From positions 1 through 61,102 of the IMG/VR virus record IMGVR_UViG_3300030107_003962: a stretch of 61,102 bases of DNA. One strand, given 5' to 3'. The notes below the pieces were generated by a model, which was not told the origin of the DNA, did no database searches, and worked only from the letters and a program-made list of their open reading frames with translations. Numbering within the stretch: position 1 is the stretch's first letter; each line of letters starts with the position of its first letter. Below, in pieces: positions 21,057 through 61,102 of this stretch. The translations under genes were made by a program, and so were the position numbers. The DNA is from a virus.

Positions 21057-21174
21057 CTTCTTGATTCTCCTTTTCAAGTCGCTTTTGGTGTCTTTCTGCT
21101 TTCAATTTGTCAAAGAACATCCTACCATCTGCCGTTATCCATATGTGTTTCAGCTCGTGTGATATAGGTCTCAT
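21049..21174 (-). CDS. Micro-ORF (41 aa) between nuclease and RusA
   Basis: A 41-residue ORF that exactly bridges the Cas4-like gene (ATGA overlap at 21171-21174) and RusA (8-base overlap at 21049-21056). It encodes a helical, charged peptide ending in a Glu/Lys/Gln-rich tail. The RusA ribosome-binding site lies inside it. It may be a real small protein or a coupling frame that carries ribosomes to RusA. Confidence 0.55.
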   Translation of the reverse strand: MRPISHELKHIWITADGRMFFDKLKAERHQKRLEKENQEDD

Positions 21175-21917
21175 AATTTACCACCTTTATATAATTTATT
21201 CAATGGAGAATCACAAATATCCGAATAGTTACAATACTTACCACACTCCCATTTATAAACCGGAACAATTCCGTTTGTTAGCTTAGGCTCAGTATTTGAG
21301 CCAATATGTTCATTCACAAAATGTCGGGCATTTATCCAATATCTTTCTGCCTCTTGCATAACACTTAGGCTTAACACTTTTTCTTCCATTTTGCTATCGT
21401 TTTTGTTGTAATAGAGCAATCCTAGATGCACTATCTTATCACACAATCCACTTTCAACACTCATACTAGCATAAGTTCCAACTTGTAGTTCGTTGTTAAT
21501 CGTTGGATTCTTATGATTAAATACATTTTTATATTTAAATGAGTTTGCCGTCTTCCAATCATATAGAGAGCCATTACCATCCTCATCTACTATTAATAAA
21601 TCAAGATGACCGGCTACTCCTAGATATTCAGACTTTAATAATGTTTCTTGGTAAAACTTATAATTGGGATTATCTTTTGCTTTCTCATCAATACCTCTTG
21701 CGAAATCTTCTCCCATTATAGTTCCAAGCCTCATTATCCTTAATCCATCAACATCTGCACCCTTTTGTTTTGCTCCTATCTTTCTGTAATAATGCTTTTT
21801 TACACAAAGACCGGAACTTGATGCCTCATACATATCCGGATTATCCTTTGCTCTTTCTAACTTATGCTCCTTGTCTTTTTTAACAAGAAACTCATTATAT
21901 ATTTCAATCGGATTCAT
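21171..21917 (-). CDS. Cas4-like PD-(D/E)XK nuclease with Fe-S cluster
   Basis: 248 residues. Catalytic motifs are G-H-L-D (D106), then L-Y-D-W-K-T (D120, K122), then L-Q-V-G-T-Y (Q145, Tyr149, the RecB motif). Four cysteines (C38 in S-S-G-L-C, and C225, C229, C235 near the C terminus) have the split arrangement of the iron-sulphur staple in Cas4, AddB and Dna2. Family members are single-strand exonucleases that process DNA ends. Here, beside an annealing protein and RusA, it most likely makes single strands for recombination. No CRISPR array or other cas gene is present, so a CRISPR role is not suggested. It overlaps the upstream regulator by 14 bases. Confidence 0.88.
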   Translation of the reverse strand: MNPIEIYNEFLVKKDKEHKLERAKDNPDMYEASSSGLCVKKHYYRKIGAKQKGADVDGLRIMRLGTIMGEDFARGIDEKAKDNPNYKFYQETLLKSEYLGVAGHLDLLIVDEDGNGSLYDWKTANSFKYKNVFNHKNPTINNELQVGTYASMSVESGLCDKIVHLGLLYYNKNDSKMEEKVLSLSVMQEAERYWINARHFVNEHIGSNTEPKLTNGIVPVYKWECGKYCNYSDICDSPLNKLYKGGKL

Positions 21918-22581
21918 TGATTCTCCTATTTTCTATCTTTAATTCTCTTGAGTATTTAGATGAATAGGTTTCTTTGGTTGGGTCGTTCCCAATATCTTTA
22001 TTCCGAACATATCCTCTTAATTTTTGGTGTTCCTTGTGCCTTAGTTTTCTAATAGCCTTTTCTTTAATTTGTCTAACTCTTTCTCTAGTCAAACCAAATT
22101 CTAAGGCGATTCCATCTAAAGTTGTAGGACACTTACCATTAAGACCAAAATGCAATTCTATAACATCCCTCTCTCTATCTTTTAATTTAAAAAGTGAGGC
22201 TTTCATATCTTTTATTAGCGAATCTCTATTGTCAATATCATCTGTGTTGTAATCTGATTCCAACTGCATTACATTTTTTGATGATAGAGATAACATTGAA
22301 TCAATAGGAATATCCTTAGTTATTTTCTTTGGATATCCCTTGCTTTTCTTAATAACCTCTTCATATTGTTCAAACAAGTCATACACATCACAATTTAACA
22401 TTTCTGCTAATTTGGTTTGGTCTTGTGTGCTAATGTTTGTGTGTTTTAAAGATGCAATATGATAAAGAGTTCCAGTTCTAATTCCGGAAACCCTTGACAA
22501 TTCTGCAATAGATTTATATTTACTATTTTCTAATGCATTCATAAAGGTTGCATTTTTAAATCTAATTTCTGCTTTTATCAT
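21904..22581 (-). CDS. XRE helix-turn-helix fused to sigma70 region 4
   Basis: 225 residues with an AAGGAG site before ATG 22581. Residues about 10-72 are a Cro/CI (XRE) helix-turn-helix (S-I-A-E-L-S-R-V-S-G-I-R-T-G-T-L-Y). Residues about 128-183 are sigma70 region 4: L-K-D-R-E-R-D-V-I-E-L-H-F-G-L, then L-D-G-I-A-L-E-F-G-L-T-R-E-R-V-R-Q-I-K-E-K-A-I-R-K-L-R-H. The middle resembles the linker before region 4. Region 2, needed for core clamp binding and -10 melting, is missing. Known region-4-only proteins act as co-sigma, anti-sigma or appropriation factors. This is probably a phage transcription switch with its own operator specificity. A structured non-coding stretch lies directly upstream. 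Confidence 0.8.
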   Translation of the reverse strand: MIKAEIRFKNATFMNALENSKYKSIAELSRVSGIRTGTLYHIASLKHTNISTQDQTKLAEMLNCDVYDLFEQYEEVIKKSKGYPKKITKDIPIDSMLSLSSKNVMQLESDYNTDDIDNRDSLIKDMKASLFKLKDRERDVIELHFGLNGKCPTTLDGIALEFGLTRERVRQIKEKAIRKLRHKEHQKLRGYVRNKDIGNDPTKETYSSKYSRELKIENRRINESD

Positions 22582-22868
22582 TTGTTCTCCTTTTTATAAG
22601 CCAAGGAACTCTTAGTGCGGACGAAAGGACTTAATTTCCAACACACACCTAGAGTTCCCCAACTTTCTCGACGAGTAAACATCCTATCCAAAACACTAGG
22701 ACACCTACCTAATTTTAAGGCGAAGATAGAGTCGCCACCCTACCCCCACCTTGAGTAAGGTGGTAGAATAAATAGCCAACCACTCTCTGATTCCCGAGAT
22801 AAGATTTCAATCATATAAACTAGAGTTGCCTTTCGGGTCTAGTAATATGAACAATCTATCATCAGACC
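22582..22868 (-). ncRNA. Structured non-coding stretch, candidate RNA or leader
   Basis: No ORF. Read on the minus strand it can form several hairpins. There is a 6-bp GGGTCT/AGACCC stem (arms 22835-22840 and 22864-22869) and a 7-bp CCACCTT/AAGGTGG stem with a 4-base loop (22746-22763) that CTA/TAG extends. A 5-bp GGCGA/TCGCC stem lies at 22719-22736 and a TCCTA/TAGGA stem at 22682-22701. A long imperfect hairpin closes with GGAACTCT/AGAGTTCC (22605-22612 and 22651-22658) and has internal GTGTG/CGCAC pairing. The last ends about 25 bases before the XRE-sigma start. It could be an mRNA leader, a separate RNA, or a structured origin. The hairpins were found by eye; the strand is inferred. Confidence 0.5.
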
Positions 22869-32604: not shown

Positions 32605-32729
32605 TTGTTCTCCATTAAGTTAGAGGCACATCAGAGTTACGACCTCTGCATAGTTCAATATTATGTGCCTTAATAAAAATAATTGTCAGTTATTTATGCC
32701 TCTCACCGATTTAAATGTCCTAGCATAGC

Positions 32730-32758
32730 ATAATATCCTTGTTAGTAAACTTGGTAAA
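32730..32758 (-). promoter_or_regulatory. Candidate leftward early promoter
   Basis: On the minus strand, TTTACC (32758-32753), a 17-base spacer and TATTAT (32735-32730). Transcription would begin about 120 bases before the first leftward gene. Moderate sigma70 match in AT-rich DNA, supported by position. Confidence 0.4.
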
Positions 32759-33244
32759 CACTAGATGGCTCTCGCACTATGATTTTCTCTTAATGTTGTT
32801 TATTCAATTCATTGTATGATAAACAAGTTAATTACTAGTCATAAAATCTAATTACACCATAATCCCTCAATCAGATATTTATTCAGTTCCGGAGTAGATT
32901 AAATTCCTTATTTCAAAAAGCAATGATATCATCAATCTGTAACAAATGTATCACTAGTAACTAATACGAGTCAAGGTTTTTTTTAAAATAAATGTAACTT
33001 TTGTTACTTTCTCTTCGTGAAATAAATTTAATTGAGGCACTAATAATCATACATTATAGGTATAAATCCAATGTAAATATTGAAATTTGAAATCACATTT
33101 TACTAGATATAGGTAGTTTATAGAAGAGGATTAGGATTTCAATACAATAAGTTATAGAGGGTAATTAGCTATATTTGAGGCATTACTAATTATACTCATT
33201 ATAAGTAATACATAATACATATATATATATAATAGCTAAATATG

Positions 33245-33276
33245 TGCTAGGTTGCTAGGGTGCTAGGGTGCTAGGT
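33245..33276 (+). repeat. Four tandem 8-bp iterons (TGCTAGGK)
   Basis: TGCTAGGT, TGCTAGGG, TGCTAGGG and TGCTAGGT follow one another without gap, and a related AGCTAGGA lies at 33310. The array directly abuts an alternating AT tract (33205-33244). Iterons beside an AT-rich unwinding tract are the usual design of an iteron origin. A terminase (pac) recognition site next to the terminase small gene is an alternative. Confidence 0.75.
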
Positions 33277-33415
33277 TGTTTTATAGGTGTAATTAGATGT
33301 GCAAGTAATAAGCTAGGATTTACTTATATATAAGGTATTGTATCTATGAATGGATTTATTGCTTATTTGGTGGTGTCTAGGCTCTACAATAGGCATCACT
33401 TTGCAAGACTCATAT

Positions 33416-33435
33416 TATAGGCTCAGATACCTATA
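33416..33435. repeat. Inverted repeat TATAGG/CCTATA
   Basis: Six-base arms with an 8-base spacer, in the non-coding region 230 bases before the terminase small gene. A possible protein-binding site; no partner can be named. Confidence 0.4.
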
Positions 33436-33666
33436 TTTAATGAAAAAAAACGAAAAAAATCAAAGATAACGAATCCTTGACGACAAAAAACCATTTGCCA
33501 CCCCACCCAACTATACACACCGGTATGCACTATTTTGCTACAATTTTGAAAGTTTGCATAGTTAACGAAAACTTATCGTATATATGGCAGGGTCCCTATC
33601 ACTCTCCCGGCACAGTCTAAGATATAGATATGGAAAAAGAAATAGATATAGGAATAAATAATAAAT

Positions 33667-55200: not shown

Positions 55201-55779
55201 TCTGCAGAGTTTCTCGTTTATGATTTTCTTACTAAGGGATGGACGAAAGGTAGTGGAGATAGGTTGTTGGATAGATTGAGGACTGGATTCTTTACAATGA
55301 ATGATACGCTATATCAGGGTATAGAAAAAAGTGGAGGCTCTGACGATTCTACTTCAGATTATAAGGATATCCAATTTTATAAATGGGATGATTCCTTTGT
55401 TGGTTCTAGTTCGACATTTACAGATACTTGTATATGGGAATCTAAAGAATATACGATGGGAGACCCTTCGCAGGAATGCGTAGTCTATAACGTGCAAGTT
55501 TCATACAAAACATCATCAGGCGACACTACTGACGTTGATGGAAAAATGTATTTAATTTATAACGATGGGACTGGAGATGTTTCTCCAGAAGAGTTAACTC
55601 CAACAACTTCATTTGTAGGCACTAATAATAAATGGAAAACAGTTAAGTTTAAAACTGCTGTAAATAGACATTGCTTAACAGCAAAGATTAAATTTGAATC
55701 AACCAGCGGTCAGGTGTTGGATTCTGGATTTGAGATTAACGATATATCAATTGTTTATAGGAATAAAAGCACGAAATAA
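52294..55779 (+). CDS. Probable tail nozzle / large tail protein with chitin-binding-like module
   Basis: 1161 residues. The start (R-F-E-G-G-I-N-D-Y-S-D-P-R-D-I, then N-I-V-N-F-D-I-R-K-V-G-R-L-R) is the typical opening of beta-propeller nozzle or tail-tubular proteins of podoviruses. Late regions (L-Q-F-K-S-E-N-L-Y-V-I-D-V, G-I-P-H-K-N-S-A, G-V-F-L-Y-Q-G) fit such a propeller. Residues about 179-228 (A-Y-V-V-G-D-C-V-D-Y, Y-K-C-T-V-A-H-T, W-S-A-I) match a CBM5/12-type carbohydrate-binding module inserted in the chain. A Y-T-S-P-P-D-I-T-I-S-G-G-T-G-S-G-A repeat-type domain lies near 610. The stop overlaps the giant fibre start. Confidence 0.7.
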   Translation: MPKKLISINRFEGGINDYSDPRDIADQESPNIVNFDIRKVGRLRLLGEFILDGTVGELIGPNTGSAPSFDNLDWGNGEELFHYKTDTEMDGDVLPEQLIAFTDKQTSKIYLYNSSGNTWVIAGEPTDSNWKGLNAVLTSNLASTLGTDSSYYVADGVLRAFNTNYGDASYTGSGVIFKDAWAHTTAYVVGDCVDYSGSRYKCTVAHTSTDNSNADTGNPASATNSWSAINASVDLFGSSSLWIGHIKRDFLSGAQSFNKWTAVPAKVITPGPETFMSPSDGASGFGASSVVGGIDTTAGKFSFGAHLKRDEGDGTIKFLGRKLYITYTYDGTQESLPYEILTIGQTEMDEQVTAPTTNTLGYESYPMRKVEYGASTIYLRNKVHEQASASNNLKNWENDGELTVTDDTGQIQTLIYSTIQEATKYDVTRINKHTVDGTKTIDFYATNADSEIDEGDIFEITGVEDDDTLQTTTADEYLNDSHWICTAASSTFIRCQKYWADNNTAQSIANTGTVDLNPPTGTVKMQRGGSYLTGVTGWVDSGYCSINYVLASAICTDGGTYSVAPDTLTIDSPPAGGTTATATFSTQGADPSISVDPNSIVITNHGDGYTSPPDITISGGTGSGAEFTTSITGKLSTENMCAEYGTSGAPTTWAASDIAVNGWTDGVPNQLGLITYDPAGELEEQDENLGMRISLTTLPKGDGTIVDYAYGGPRLTHVNFYTNKYDASGSRPEQDDYAFLGSFDLIRGFIKPDGSAEAWITDATHSDQKTSFSHYFGTQPTENYQMRTGMFPDTQSIDMRCKTSVVLNRRVYAGNVLMKDEAGNEKHYPDRVLKSLPNQFDVFPPYDSLDVVVDDGDDIIKLESFGGKLLQFKSENLYVIDVTQMPEFLAGTFRYRGIPHKNSAAKTDDGIVFANKNGVFLYQGEGCVPISKGKIDDIWNGTSGFYSSANPPILAFLPDKNVCIITKGGSAEFLVYDFLTKGWTKGSGDRLLDRLRTGFFTMNDTLYQGIEKSGGSDDSTSDYKDIQFYKWDDSFVGSSSTFTDTCIWESKEYTMGDPSQECVVYNVQVSYKTSSGDTTDVDGKMYLIYNDGTGDVSPEELTPTTSFVGTNNKWKTVKFKTAVNRHCLTAKIKFESTSGQVLDSGFEINDISIVYRNKSTK

Positions 55780-58700
55780 TGGCGGTACAAAATTATCAAC
55801 CTAGAATATTATTAAAGGACGGAATCCCAAGTGACTCAGAGGGTTATGAGGGTGAAATACGAATTGGGCAATTAGATGGTAAATTATATCAATTTGTAAG
55901 ATATCAGAATAAATGGCATTCAATCCCTTTCTCTCAAAGCGTTGGAGAAGATTTAAGTCAATCAATAGCTAATGTTGTAGTCCAAGCTAAAACACTAACA
56001 ACTCAAACTGTCCAAAGTATCGTATGTGATACAATTAAAGTCAAAGAAACAATCTATGACAACTCTGGTGGAGCTGGAATATCTACTACAGAGTTAATTA
56101 GTCACCCATCAGATAATAATAAAGCACATAGTGATTATATGGTTAGTGGTGGAGAGCAAGACTTTGATGGCTCTATTAAATTTAAAGGTGGAACAACCCT
56201 AGGGGCTGTTGCTAATTATATAATAAGAGGGTATTCTCCTACAGCCGCAGCAGAAGATAAGAATGTATTCTTTATTGGAAATCCAGCATATCATGCTGAT
56301 TGGATAAAAAAAGTAGGATTTTATATTGCCCCATCAAGCATAGAGGGTATATTCCATATTGCTACGACAAGTGGTCAAGATTTTATATTAGATGATGATG
56401 GAAAGTTAAAAATTGAATCACTAGAAGTTACCGCAGGGATATCAGGAAGCTCTTTAGATATAAATAGTAATGCTACAATAAGTTCTTCTGGAGCATTGGA
56501 AGTTATTAGTATCGACACAGGTCCGGGGGCTACTGAAGTGTATCCTACTGCAGATGTTGTGGGTGGTCAATCTATAACAGCTAGCGGAAATGCTCAAGGC
56601 TCTTCTGCGATTAATATAGCTGTAACAGATGACTCAATAGGAGATACTCAATTAGTTCACGAAACGGGGCAGCACTTAAGGAGCACAGATGCTGTTCAGC
56701 ACGTTAGATTAGGATTGGGCGTAGCTGCAGATGGAACTAAAGACCTAACAATAAAATCAGCACATCCAAGAATAGAACTTATAAATAGTAACGATGGTGA
56801 TAGCTCAGTAATATTAGCAAACAACTCAGGTCATTTAGATATAACTCCAACTGATGGAATAGAGGTGGCTAGTAATAAATATATAAAATCCATAGGAGCT
56901 ACGTCAGGATTTGGAGGTGCTGGATTAAATATTACAGTATCTAGCAATAAATATCATATAGAATGCGAAGAATTAACAGTTCGTGGTCAAATGAATGTAT
57001 ATGAGTTATTGATAAACCAAATTAGAGCAACTAATGGTTCTTTGTTTGTGACTACAGCACATGAGTTATCAGCCTTTTCAAATAATCATGCGATTGAAGA
57101 TGATACAGCTTTAGTGTCCTGCAAGGGTAATTTCATTACCGACACTCATCCATTTGTAAATGATGATATATTATTACTTCAATATTGGAGCTTTACAGGC
57201 ACATCCACAAGAAGATATTTAAAGGTTACAGATGCAGGATACGGAACTAATCTTCAATTCCATGCATTGGTTTATGATGTAAATGGAGACCAAGTAATTG
57301 GTGCGGATATAGATGATGAGGAAGATATATTCATTAAAGGTAAAACCTTATGTAGAATAGGTAGTGCTAGTGATACAGATAGACAAGGTGGTATATATTT
57401 AACTTCAGATGATAGTAATGCCCCATATTTATCTATATGGAATGGCCTCACAGCCCCTAATCAATGGGGGACTGCTGGAATAGAGAAATTAAGATTAGGG
57501 AATTTAGACGGAGCAAGTAATCAGTCTGGTGGTACTTTGAGTGGGACATCATATGGATTATCAGCTCAAGATGTATACTTAACTGGTCATTTACACGCAA
57601 CCACAGGATATATTGGAAATACAGATGCTGGATGGGCGATTGATAGTTTAGGAATAGTAAATACAACGTCGAATGTGAATGCAAGAATAGCTATAGGAAC
57701 AGGTGGATTTTTTAATGCAAATCAATCATTTTATGTAGATGGTACTGGGCAATTTAGCCTTTATGATAAATTTAAAGTTGATACTGATGGCTCAATAACA
57801 ATAACAGGTAATTTTTACACATCTGATAATAATCCTATAGGACCGGGGATGACTTGGCAAGGTGATTGGTCAGAAAGTACTACATATCAAGTAAATGATG
57901 GAGTAGCTCATAATGGAGCTAGTTATCTATGTATCTTATCGACATTAAATAATGAACCGCCAAATTCTACATATTGGGAAGCTATGGCATTAAGTGGTTC
58001 CCCGGGTAGTGATGGAGCCGATGGGGCAGATGGAGCAGATGGTGAAACTGGGCCAACGGGACCTACCGGTCCAACAGGACCAACGGGAGAAAAAGGTGAA
58101 GATGGTAGTGATGGAGCCGACGGAGCTGACGGAGTAGATGGTATTGACGGTGTTGACGGAGACGATGGAACAGATGGTGTTGACGGTGTTGACGGAGAAG
58201 ATGGGGAACCGGGTACTCCGGGAGCAGCAGCTAAGGGCATCCATTTATCTTTAGAGTCTTCAACTATATCTTATGATAATTCCACGGGAACTCCAGTATT
58301 AAATCCATCTGGGGGAACACAAGACTTTAAAGTATATGGCGTATTAACAAATATAAGCGGTCAAAATGTTACTTATACTATTAAAGATACAAATGGAACA
58401 GCTCAGACCGACTTAACATTCTCTAATGGAAGTCATACACTAACAGATATGAGTGGTTCTCAAGGATGGGTTCAAGTAGATGTATCTTCTTGGGATACTG
58501 TAGCATCTGGTGATTCTAAGCTAATTCATGTTAGTGTTACAGATGAGGGAACAGAATATACAGATGAGCAAAGAATATATGCATTATTTTCAGGGCAATC
58601 TGGGTCTGACGGAGCTGATGGAGCAGACGGGGAGAACGGTGCTGATGGTGCAGATGGTAGTGATGGTATTCATGGAGTAACAGCATTTTTAACAAATGAA

Positions 58701-61102
58701 ACTCATGTAATATCATGGGATGGTAGCACTCCTAACTATACAAATTCAGGTGGTAATTTTAAAGTATTTTCAGGAACTGAAGATGTGACCTCATCTTCTA
58801 CATTTACAGGAGATGCAAGTAATAGTGGTTTGACAATGACCATGAATGAAGGTACAGGTGAGTATAGTCTTAGTGGAAGCGGTTGGAGTTCTGCGCAAGA
58901 ATCATTTACATTAACGGCAACATATAATGGGGTATCGTATCCAAGGGTGTATACTATTGCAAAAAGTTTCAAAGGAGAGGCTGGCGCTGATGGTGCTGAT
59001 GGAGCCGATGGTGCAGATGGAATTGATGGAGCCGATGGAGCCGATGGTGCAGATGGTGCTGATGGCAGCGATGGTACAGATGCCGTTGTAGTTAGCTTAA
59101 CAAGCAATCACTATGCAATATCTTACGATGGATTTGATGCATTGAAATCACCTGCTACATATACTTTAACAGCGTACTATCAAGGATTAAGTGATACTGT
59201 ATATTTAGCTTTTTATCAAGACGGAGTATTTAAAACTGAGATATCAACCTCGGCTGGAAATGGGCAATATGAAGTAACACCACCAGCCTCACCATTTGAT
59301 TCTACTCAATGGCAAGTAAAGATTGGTACATCATCTATTAATGGTGGAGGCTCAGTATTAGCACTAGATACTATTTCCATATATTCTATTGAAGACCCTG
59401 AGATGCAAATACCACAGTCTGGATTAGTGGTGCAGCCAAGTAATGGAGTAAATGGTATTGGTAATTATTTATTCATGCCATCAGAAAATGATACCTCTTT
59501 AACCCTTCCTTCAAATTCTGAGTTTTATTTTTGGGATACAGGTGGAGCTTTAGTTGAAATTAATTCATCGGAAGATAATGAAAGTTTTGTTGATGGGGTC
59601 TCATGGGAGAAACTTGGATACGTTGCAATTGATTGGAATGTGGGAGTATTTAACGGAGTAATAGATTATGTAGATTATAATGATAATATATTAACGGGTG
59701 GAGACATTATGGTAATGAAAATGTCAGACACCAATTGGGCGGCATATAGATTGCAAAGATGGGCTCCAGCTTCAGCGGCAGATGCGTCTGGGCATCAAGC
59801 ATTCTCATTAACATTAATCACATATCAAGGGGATGGACCATCTGGTTATACAATTTCTACCTCTATACTTGAATATATTGGATTCACTAAATCATTAGAG
59901 GGTGTACCGGGACCTACAGGGCCTTCAGGGGCTGATGGCGCTGATGGAACACCCACATATTCTGTTATAATTGAAAATGAAAACCACACATTCCCTGTAG
60001 TTGATGGAGCAGTATCGAGCTTTGAAGGTGGCGGAGGGAAAGTATGGGTATACAAAGGAACGGAATTACTAAACCCAATATCAAGTGGAACTCCAACTAC
60101 TGGTGAAGTTAAAATATCAGCTCAAACTATTTCAAGCTGGATAAATGCATCTATCTCAGATGATGGGGATGCATACTTTAATATTAATGGTCCTACAGAG
60201 TGGACAGATATGTCAAAGGGTTATGCGACACTCACATTTAGTTTGGCTATAGAGTCTGATGCTAATGTTGTTAGTAAGAAAGTTTCATATTCATTGGCGA
60301 CAGAGGGTGCCGATGGGTCTGACGGAGCAAATGGGGTAGATGGAGCAGATGGTGCAGATGGAGCTGACGGGGCGGATGGAACGGATGCTCAGACTGTAAT
60401 GTTGACTGCATCATCTTATGTTGTTGATTATTCAAGCGGTTCTGCATCACCAACTACAATAACATTTACGGCAGTTCCCCAAGGCACTCCTACAGCAAAT
60501 CATTATTATGATTTTCAAGTTGATGGAGTTTCAATAAATAATACTACTGCTACATCAAAGACTTGGGCGGTTCCAGAATCTAATTTTAACACACCTAAGA
60601 TTATAACAGTAGATTTAAGATTAGGGGCGAATGATTCCGATATAATTGCGTCAGATGCTCTATCTATATATGGAGTTTCTGATGGTGGCCCGGGAGCTGA
60701 TGGCTCAGATGGTGCTGATGGGGCTGACGGAGCTGATGGGGCAGATGGGTCGGATGGAGGTCCGGGTCCTACAGGACCATCAGGTGCACCCGGTCTTTCT
60801 GCTGAACCTACATATAGTAAAGTAATAGAATATAATAGGTATGGGGAATTAAATGGTGAGGGATTCTTAGCCTTTAATACTGGTTCTTATTCATTCCATA
60901 CTGAAACAAATCTTGATGATATAGGTGAAAATAATTTATCAGACTGGACTAGTTCTAATATTAGCAGTCCTATTACGACTGATTTTTCAACTGCTGGTTT
61001 GTTTTTAATAAACAAATATGATATAAATGTAAATCTACATAATGGATATATTGCGGGATTAAATGTAGGTGATACTTTTGTGTATGAGATTGCATCTGAT
61101 GG
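55779..61102 (+). CDS. Giant modular tail fibre, N-terminal part (continues at base 1)
   Basis: Start ATG at 55779 overlaps the previous stop (TAATG). The frame stays open to the window end and continues at base 3, giving about 3243 residues in total. The N terminus (R-I-L-L-K-D-G-I-P-S-D-S-E-G, E-I-R-I-G) resembles virion-anchoring ends of fibres. A CBM5/12-like module lies at about 691-738 (W-Q-G-D-W, Y-Q-V-N-D-G-V-A-H-N-G-A-S-Y-L-C). Collagen-like Gly-X-Y tracts then alternate with Ig-like beta-sandwich domains of about 90-200 residues: tracts at 57996-58230, 58593-58680, 58974-59085, 59901-59952, 60306-60386 and 60684-60798. The beads-on-rods layout would make a long trimeric fibre with several sugar- or receptor-binding knobs. 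Confidence 0.87.
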   Translation, partial: MAVQNYQPRILLKDGIPSDSEGYEGEIRIGQLDGKLYQFVRYQNKWHSIPFSQSVGEDLSQSIANVVVQAKTLTTQTVQSIVCDTIKVKETIYDNSGGAGISTTELISHPSDNNKAHSDYMVSGGEQDFDGSIKFKGGTTLGAVANYIIRGYSPTAAAEDKNVFFIGNPAYHADWIKKVGFYIAPSSIEGIFHIATTSGQDFILDDDGKLKIESLEVTAGISGSSLDINSNATISSSGALEVISIDTGPGATEVYPTADVVGGQSITASGNAQGSSAINIAVTDDSIGDTQLVHETGQHLRSTDAVQHVRLGLGVAADGTKDLTIKSAHPRIELINSNDGDSSVILANNSGHLDITPTDGIEVASNKYIKSIGATSGFGGAGLNITVSSNKYHIECEELTVRGQMNVYELLINQIRATNGSLFVTTAHELSAFSNNHAIEDDTALVSCKGNFITDTHPFVNDDILLLQYWSFTGTSTRRYLKVTDAGYGTNLQFHALVYDVNGDQVIGADIDDEEDIFIKGKTLCRIGSASDTDRQGGIYLTSDDSNAPYLSIWNGLTAPNQWGTAGIEKLRLGNLDGASNQSGGTLSGTSYGLSAQDVYLTGHLHATTGYIGNTDAGWAIDSLGIVNTTSNVNARIAIGTGGFFNANQSFYVDGTGQFSLYDKFKVDTDGSITITGNFYTSDNNPIGPGMTWQGDWSESTTYQVNDGVAHNGASYLCILSTLNNEPPNSTYWEAMALSGSPGSDGADGADGADGETGPTGPTGPTGPTGEKGEDGSDGADGADGVDGIDGVDGDDGTDGVDGVDGEDGEPGTPGAAAKGIHLSLESSTISYDNSTGTPVLNPSGGTQDFKVYGVLTNISGQNVTYTIKDTNGTAQTDLTFSNGSHTLTDMSGSQGWVQVDVSSWDTVASGDSKLIHVSVTDEGTEYTDEQRIYALFSGQSGSDGADGADGENGADGADGSDGIHGVTAFLTNETHVISWDGSTPNYTNSGGNFKVFSGTEDVTSSSTFTGDASNSGLTMTMNEGTGEYSLSGSGWSSAQESFTLTATYNGVSYPRVYTIAKSFKGEAGADGADGADGADGIDGADGADGADGADGSDGTDAVVVSLTSNHYAISYDGFDALKSPATYTLTAYYQGLSDTVYLAFYQDGVFKTEISTSAGNGQYEVTPPASPFDSTQWQVKIGTSSINGGGSVLALDTISIYSIEDPEMQIPQSGLVVQPSNGVNGIGNYLFMPSENDTSLTLPSNSEFYFWDTGGALVEINSSEDNESFVDGVSWEKLGYVAIDWNVGVFNGVIDYVDYNDNILTGGDIMVMKMSDTNWAAYRLQRWAPASAADASGHQAFSLTLITYQGDGPSGYTISTSILEYIGFTKSLEGVPGPTGPSGADGADGTPTYSVIIENENHTFPVVDGAVSSFEGGGGKVWVYKGTELLNPISSGTPTTGEVKISAQTISSWINASISDDGDAYFNINGPTEWTDMSKGYATLTFSLAIESDANVVSKKVSYSLATEGADGSDGANGVDGADGADGADGADGTDAQTVMLTASSYVVDYSSGSASPTTITFTAVPQGTPTANHYYDFQVDGVSINNTTATSKTWAVPESNFNTPKIITVDLRLGANDSDIIASDALSIYGVSDGGPGADGSDGADGADGADGADGSDGGPGPTGPSGAPGLSAEPTYSKVIEYNRYGELNGEGFLAFNTGSYSFHTETNLDDIGENNLSDWTSSNISSPITTDFSTAGLFLINKYDINVNLHNGYIAGLNVGDTFVYEIASD
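57996..58230 (+). repeat. Collagen-type Gly-X-Y tract 1 of giant fibre
   Basis: About 78 codons of Gly-X-Y, mainly GAD, GVD and GPT units, directly after the CBM-like module and before the first Ig-like domain. Longest of the tracts. Confidence 0.9.
58974..59085 (+). repeat. Collagen-type tract 3 of giant fibre
   Basis: GAD/GID/GSD triplets. The preceding tract 2 (58593-58680) and this one bracket an Ig-like domain. These Asp-rich tracts lack proline, unlike tracts 1, 4 and 6. Confidence 0.85.
60306..60386 (+). repeat. Collagen-type tract 5 of giant fibre
   Basis: About 27 codons of GAD/GSD/GVD units between two Ig-like domains; no proline. Confidence 0.85.
60684..60798 (+). repeat. Collagen-type tract 6 of giant fibre
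   Basis: About 38 codons starting G-G-P-G-A-D and ending G-P-T-G-P-S-G-A-P-G. It mixes proline-containing and Asp-rich triplets. The next tracts of the same protein lie at 273-302 and 657-740 after the circular join. Confidence 0.85.
61003..61100. repeat. Terminal redundancy, right copy
   Basis: Identical to bases 1-98. The unit genome is therefore about 61002 bp. After this copy the window reads GG where the left copy continues AGATGG, a small disagreement at the very edge. Confidence 0.93.

Follow-up and report, generated by a model that had tools for sequence, protein, structure and literature searches.

A phage protein joining an XRE domain to an RpoD-type sigma region 4 without region 2: a possible regulator acting on host RNA polymerase

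Sigma appropriation in phage T4 is carried out by two proteins, AsiA and MotA, acting on the host sigma factor. Late transcription activators of the RinA/ArpU type (PHROG 36) are also phage proteins, and their C-terminal HTH resembles sigma region 4. The T4 late coactivator gp33 clamps the flap-tip helix of RNA polymerase as region 4 does (PMC7892883) and has been termed a sigma4 mimic (PMC2988020). The RcGTA activator GafA carries an HTH at its N-terminus and a weakly sigma-like C-terminus, and it contacts the polymerase (PMC9638019); the sigma similarity of the GafA C-terminus is tentative (E > 0.84; PMC9638019). Here we describe a phage gene whose product joins an XRE (Cro/CI-type) domain to a sigma70 region 4. 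The DNA analyzed, referred to below as the window, is the 61,102-nt stretch of IMG/VR virus record IMGVR_UViG_3300030107_003962. Table 1 lists the features of the locus.

Table 1. Coordinates of the fusion gene, its domains, its leader and RNA element copies in related phage contigs (window positions unless a contig is named).
Feature	Position	Strand	Remarks
XRE-sigma4 fusion gene	21904..22581	(-)	225 aa, ATG start; kept in 10 distinct relatives
Overlap of fusion gene 3' end with next gene (21171-21917)			14 nt
N-terminal XRE (Cro/CI-type) HTH domain, residues 1-79	22345..22581	(-)	HTH_26 (Pfam match 21-71) and XRE fold
Linker, residues 80-117, predicted disordered	22231..22344	(-)	pLDDT < 50
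Sigma70 region 4 with leading helix and RpoD-like C-terminal end, residues 118-192	22006..22230	(-)	Sigma70_r4, RpoD structures
Variable C-terminal tail, residues 193-225	21907..22005	(-)	mostly absent from L089, L091 and L092
Structured non-coding leader, 5' of fusion gene	22582..22868	(-)	fold z = -4.06
RNA element copies	L082 3133-3222; L109 14427-14493; L103 3698-3757		among others
RNA element copies	L097 2812-2870; L183 2267-2329; L113 399-465		among others

The reading frame proposed in the first-pass annotation was correct in coordinates and strand; it opens with an ATG, and a strong ribosome-binding site (AAAAAGGAG, 22587-22595) lies 5' of it. That annotation had also read the product as a fusion of an XRE domain and region 4 with region 2 missing, and this architecture was borne out by the Pfam matches, the fold neighbours and the RpoD-type match described below. 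AlphaFold2 modelled the whole fusion protein with low overall confidence (pLDDT 60.8).

The C-terminal domain is a complete sigma70 region 4. Pfam Sigma70_r4 matched residues 130-182 over positions 2-50 of the 50-position profile (E = 8.1e-15), and the profile of the fusion family matched solved RpoD/SigA structures at ~1e-22 (> 80 bits), the match extending to the RpoD-like C-terminal end. This closeness to RpoD, C-terminal end included, suggests that constraints beyond DNA binding have been kept. The −35-reading residues R166, E167 and Q171, which we take to be equivalent to E. coli R584, E585 and Q589, are conserved in 10 of the 11 family members; in the remaining one, R166 and E167 are replaced by Y and D. 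Since these residues are conserved, the region 4 of the fusion protein is predicted from its sequence to be one that could recognize a −35 element.

Profile matches and structural models identify the N-terminus as an XRE domain, for which DNA binding is predicted. The Pfam model HTH_26 scored 21.7 bits on the whole fusion protein, narrowly under its cut-off of 22, and passed the cut-off on the isolated N-terminal domain (24.0 bits, E = 4.8e-5); at E <= 1 it was found in 5 of the 11 members of the fusion family. The AlphaFold2 model of the domain, made with 11 sequences, contains helices at residues 11-18, 25-32, 36-43, 52-61 and 66-80 (mean pLDDT 79.8), i.e., a five-helix HTH. When this model was compared with the PDB by Foldseek, the nearest folds were almost all XRE proteins (SinR, CylR2, ImmR), and SinR with DNA (3zkc) aligned to it with a TM-score of 0.81 by target length at 1.9 A. 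The Foldseek E-values were weak (best 0.084), which we attribute to the shortness of the domain. The recognition-helix region differs among family members, as would be expected if their operators differ. Residues 1-80 also align weakly to region 2.4-3 of ordinary sigma factors by BLAST and hhalign. The N-terminus as a worn-down sigma region 2.4-3 was rejected, since the N-terminus by itself gives an hhalign E of 0.21, Pfam finds HTH_26 there without any sigma region, and its nearest folds are those of XRE proteins; a remote origin is possible.

The linker between the two domains carries a conserved motif (IPID..LSLSS...LQLESD) and is left disordered by AlphaFold2. Local HMMER alignments of the fusion protein to RpoS extend in a colinear fashion into the linker. 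A sigma finger (region 3.2) was considered for this segment and rejected as unsupported, because the signal is absent once the linker stands alone. The isolated linker gave an hhalign E of 0.52 (i.e., no signal) and no match in a PDB search; in the register test 3 of 35 sigmas were in register vs. a shuffled mean of 3.0. The first-pass annotation had allowed for a cryptic region 2 in residues 75-127. None was found there: residues 80-117 are predicted to be disordered and give no family or profile match.

Region 2, the part of sigma70-family proteins responsible for −10 recognition and core docking, is not recognizable in the protein, in the closed genome or in 12 related records. The Pfam model PF04542 (region 2) gave no match at E <= 10 in the whole window, nor in the 12 related records that carry the fusion, and the control genomes were positive in both searches. 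Searching every window ORF of at least 40 aa with a phage sigma profile at full sensitivity returned the fusion ORF only; a very diverged gp55-like region 2 in the genome could be missed by these searches. The window genome is closed at ~61.0 kb, its first 98 nt (1-98) recurring as its last 98 nt (61003-61100), and the absence of region 2 is therefore meaningful. The reading frame 55779-61100 at the window end enters the terminal repeat; a collagen-like tail gene spans the joined window ends. Record G010 is closed by a 139-nt overlap, and G005 is probably closed too, with its exonuclease gene divided over its two ends.

The same fusion recurs in other phages, a point raised at the first reading of the sequence. 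The order XRE-linker-region 4 was found in 10 distinct IMG/VR relatives that are 39-76% identical to the window protein; all of them come from uncultured phage contigs, two are apparently complete genomes, and region 2 is present in none. Recurrence in this many relatives makes the fusion more than a chance event. Of the 80 relatives returned by a first scan, all but eight (L002-L009) were normal sigma factors with region 2. The N-terminal domain and linker of one relative, used as a query against annotated phages, gave no match, and a search of cellular genomes with conserved N-terminal patterns, limited in its sensitivity, found no relative. The same fusion in named phages was rejected, because the tblastn matches cover the linker and region 4 only. 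Three of these matches were inspected and found to be complete host-type RpoD genes in unverified records (MT836790, MT839157 and MT835471, human-gut 'Bacteriophage sp.'), where the RpoD genes are probably bacterial DNA. Plasmid matches over residues 1-192 were also rejected, because they belong to complete, ordinary sigma factors from Hymenobacter and Thermomicrobium.

The window phage encodes a P22-type portal and an SU10-type capsid protein, and its terminase is common to records G005, G009 and G010 at 39%. Its structural genes run rightward from 33.7 kb via the closed end to 18.7 kb. All other genes are read leftward, from 32.6 down to 18.7 kb, and the fusion gene lies within this leftward block together with genes for ArdC-like antirestriction, Sak-type annealing, PD-(D/E)XK exonuclease, RusA-type resolvase and NinB-like proteins. 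In most relatives with visible neighbours the fusion gene adjoins the exonuclease gene, the Sak gene or both. A leftward recombination block of this kind would be a usual place for an early product acting on later genes. The terminase genes are ~11 kb away on the opposite strand.

We examined the window for possible target sites and identified no late promoter or operator. A promoter consensus scan returned 56 promoter-like matches, fewer than the shuffled mean of 72. Ahead of the structural genes lies a control region of 1 kb (about 32605-33666), which contains a 33-nt repeat (33020-33052 and 33163-33195, + strand; 76% identical), and TTGAGGCAYTA occurs exactly in both copies (33032 and 33175) with no other exact copy in the window. 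The two copies are a candidate pair of promoters or operators; inspection by eye of the G005 and G010 control regions did not reveal TTGAGGCAYTA there. The control region of the window also contains a short tandem array of the 8-mer GTGCTAGG / TTGCTAGG (33244-33283, + strand).

The leader upstream of the fusion gene folds much better than shuffled versions of itself. At the same place, relatives G001 and G002 carry a covarying three-helix RNA element of ~65 nt with the pattern TTAGGTAA...GATGTTTACC..GTCGAAAAG...hairpin..., which was found at ~20 intercistronic places in related phage contigs. The element often overlaps the upstream stop codon, with a ribosome-binding site after it. In two relatives it lies in front of the XRE-sigma4 gene, and elsewhere in front of other genes. 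Its pairs show strong covariation: both partners have changed in 11 of 16, a level reached by 0 of 500 shuffles and far above that of sliding controls, on an alignment fitted to the model, which flatters the result. An Rfam search with the element gave no match. The window leader has short motifs in common with the element, and the element model gives it 4.2 bits only; it is doubtful that the leader is a copy, and at best it would be a degenerate one.

Our leading reading, held tentatively, is that the fusion protein is a phage transcription factor acting on host RNA polymerase. Judged from sequence, the family probably steers host RNA polymerase to phage promoters, and the mechanism put forward in the first-pass annotation, i.e., docking on the beta-flap while an operator is read, appears plausible. 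The protein would be made early in infection. Its XRE domain would bind a phage operator, and the RpoD-type region 4, tethered by a flexible segment of ~38 residues, would dock on the beta-flap tip and replace region 4 of the host sigma; the docked region 4 may also read a −35 element. Because the phage has no recognizable region 2, −10 recognition and melting would be left to regions 2 and 3 of the host sigma. Middle or late promoters of the phage would likely be activated as a result, and −35-dependent promoters of the host may in addition be used less. We prefer the account with the XRE domain on DNA and region 4 on the flap because it is the simplest one that uses both conserved domains. 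It is possible, though we consider it rather doubtful, that the protein forms a one-polypeptide promoter switch, in which an RpoD-type region 4, separated from its sigma factor and fused to a repressor domain, displaces the host sigma on the beta-flap, and the repressor domain recruits the polymerase to operators of the phage.

The main and serious rival to polymerase docking is an ordinary regulator with two HTH domains in the style of RinA/ArpU. Region 4 would then only bind DNA and make no polymerase contact, and activation or repression would be set by the place of binding. Region 4-type HTHs may serve as plain DNA-binding domains, and the fusion protein matched phrog_36, the RinA/ArpU family, in part (E = 4.5e-5); this match covers residues 48-181 only, lies far below the sigma matches of the protein and falls short of a family-level match. 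The RinA protein of phi11 matches phrog_36 at 1.9e-38 and a sigma family at 1.2e-4. However, the region 4 described here is far nearer to RpoD (> 80 bits) than to RinA (hhalign probability 0.4% against phi11 RinA), and RinA directly precedes the terminase genes, whereas the fusion gene does not. We regard such a two-HTH regulator as somewhat unlikely.

The fusion protein could also be a host shut-off or sigma-competition factor. In that case region 4 on the beta-flap would reduce transcription from −35-dependent host promoters, and the XRE domain would control the fusion gene itself. Xp10 P7, a phage protein that displaces sigma from the flap region (PMC3985653), is a precedent. A factor of this type needs no intact −35-reading face, yet the face is conserved, and we consider the shut-off role improbable. 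A split sigma would leave just this architecture, and T4 gp55 with gp33 is described as one (PMC2988020). That the fusion protein is one half of such a pair, with region 2 supplied by an unrecognized protein of the phage or by one of the host, is very improbable, since a separate region 2 protein was not found in the window and 12 relatives at E <= 10, nor by the phage sigma profile.

If the preferred reading is true, i.e., the XRE domain is on the operator and region 4 is on the flap, a phage would have in this one gene a minimal means of redirecting host RNA polymerase, and the gene would be a natural experiment on the capabilities of region 4 without the rest of sigma. The relatives at 39-76% identity permit direct comparison of flap-contacting vs. 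DNA-contacting residues. Were the protein limited to DNA binding, it would still show that a sigma region 4 of the housekeeping type can be co-opted into an ordinary regulator.

Compared with the known systems, the nearest annotated class is RinA/ArpU, and on sequence comparison the two are not close. RinA is ~140 aa with no room for an additional XRE domain, and the fusion protein has 225 aa. The rinA gene stands directly before the terminase genes, whereas the fusion gene is in a recombination block on the opposite strand, and the region 4 of the fusion protein is plainly RpoD-type, unlike that of RinA. GafA resembles the fusion protein in having an N-terminal HTH, a C-terminal sigma-like DNA-binding domain and host polymerase as its partner (proposed for the fusion protein). 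It differs in its DnaA-like N-terminus, its larger size (42 kDa) and its contact with the omega subunit (PMC9638019); DUF6456 gave no match in a Pfam scan of the fusion family. T4 gp33, like the proposed fusion mechanism, holds the beta-flap in the place of region 4 and is not a sigma factor. Unlike the fusion protein, it is structurally unrelated to region 4, does not bind DNA alone, and works together with gp55 (region 2) and a sliding clamp (PMC7892883). The proposed role is similar to that of AsiA/MotA in that the host holoenzyme is redirected through changed region 4 contacts and a new DNA-reading domain. AsiA and MotA are two proteins, whereas the fusion would hold region 4 and the DNA-reading domain in one polypeptide; if the promoter switch is true, sigma appropriation would be achieved by one gene instead of two or three.
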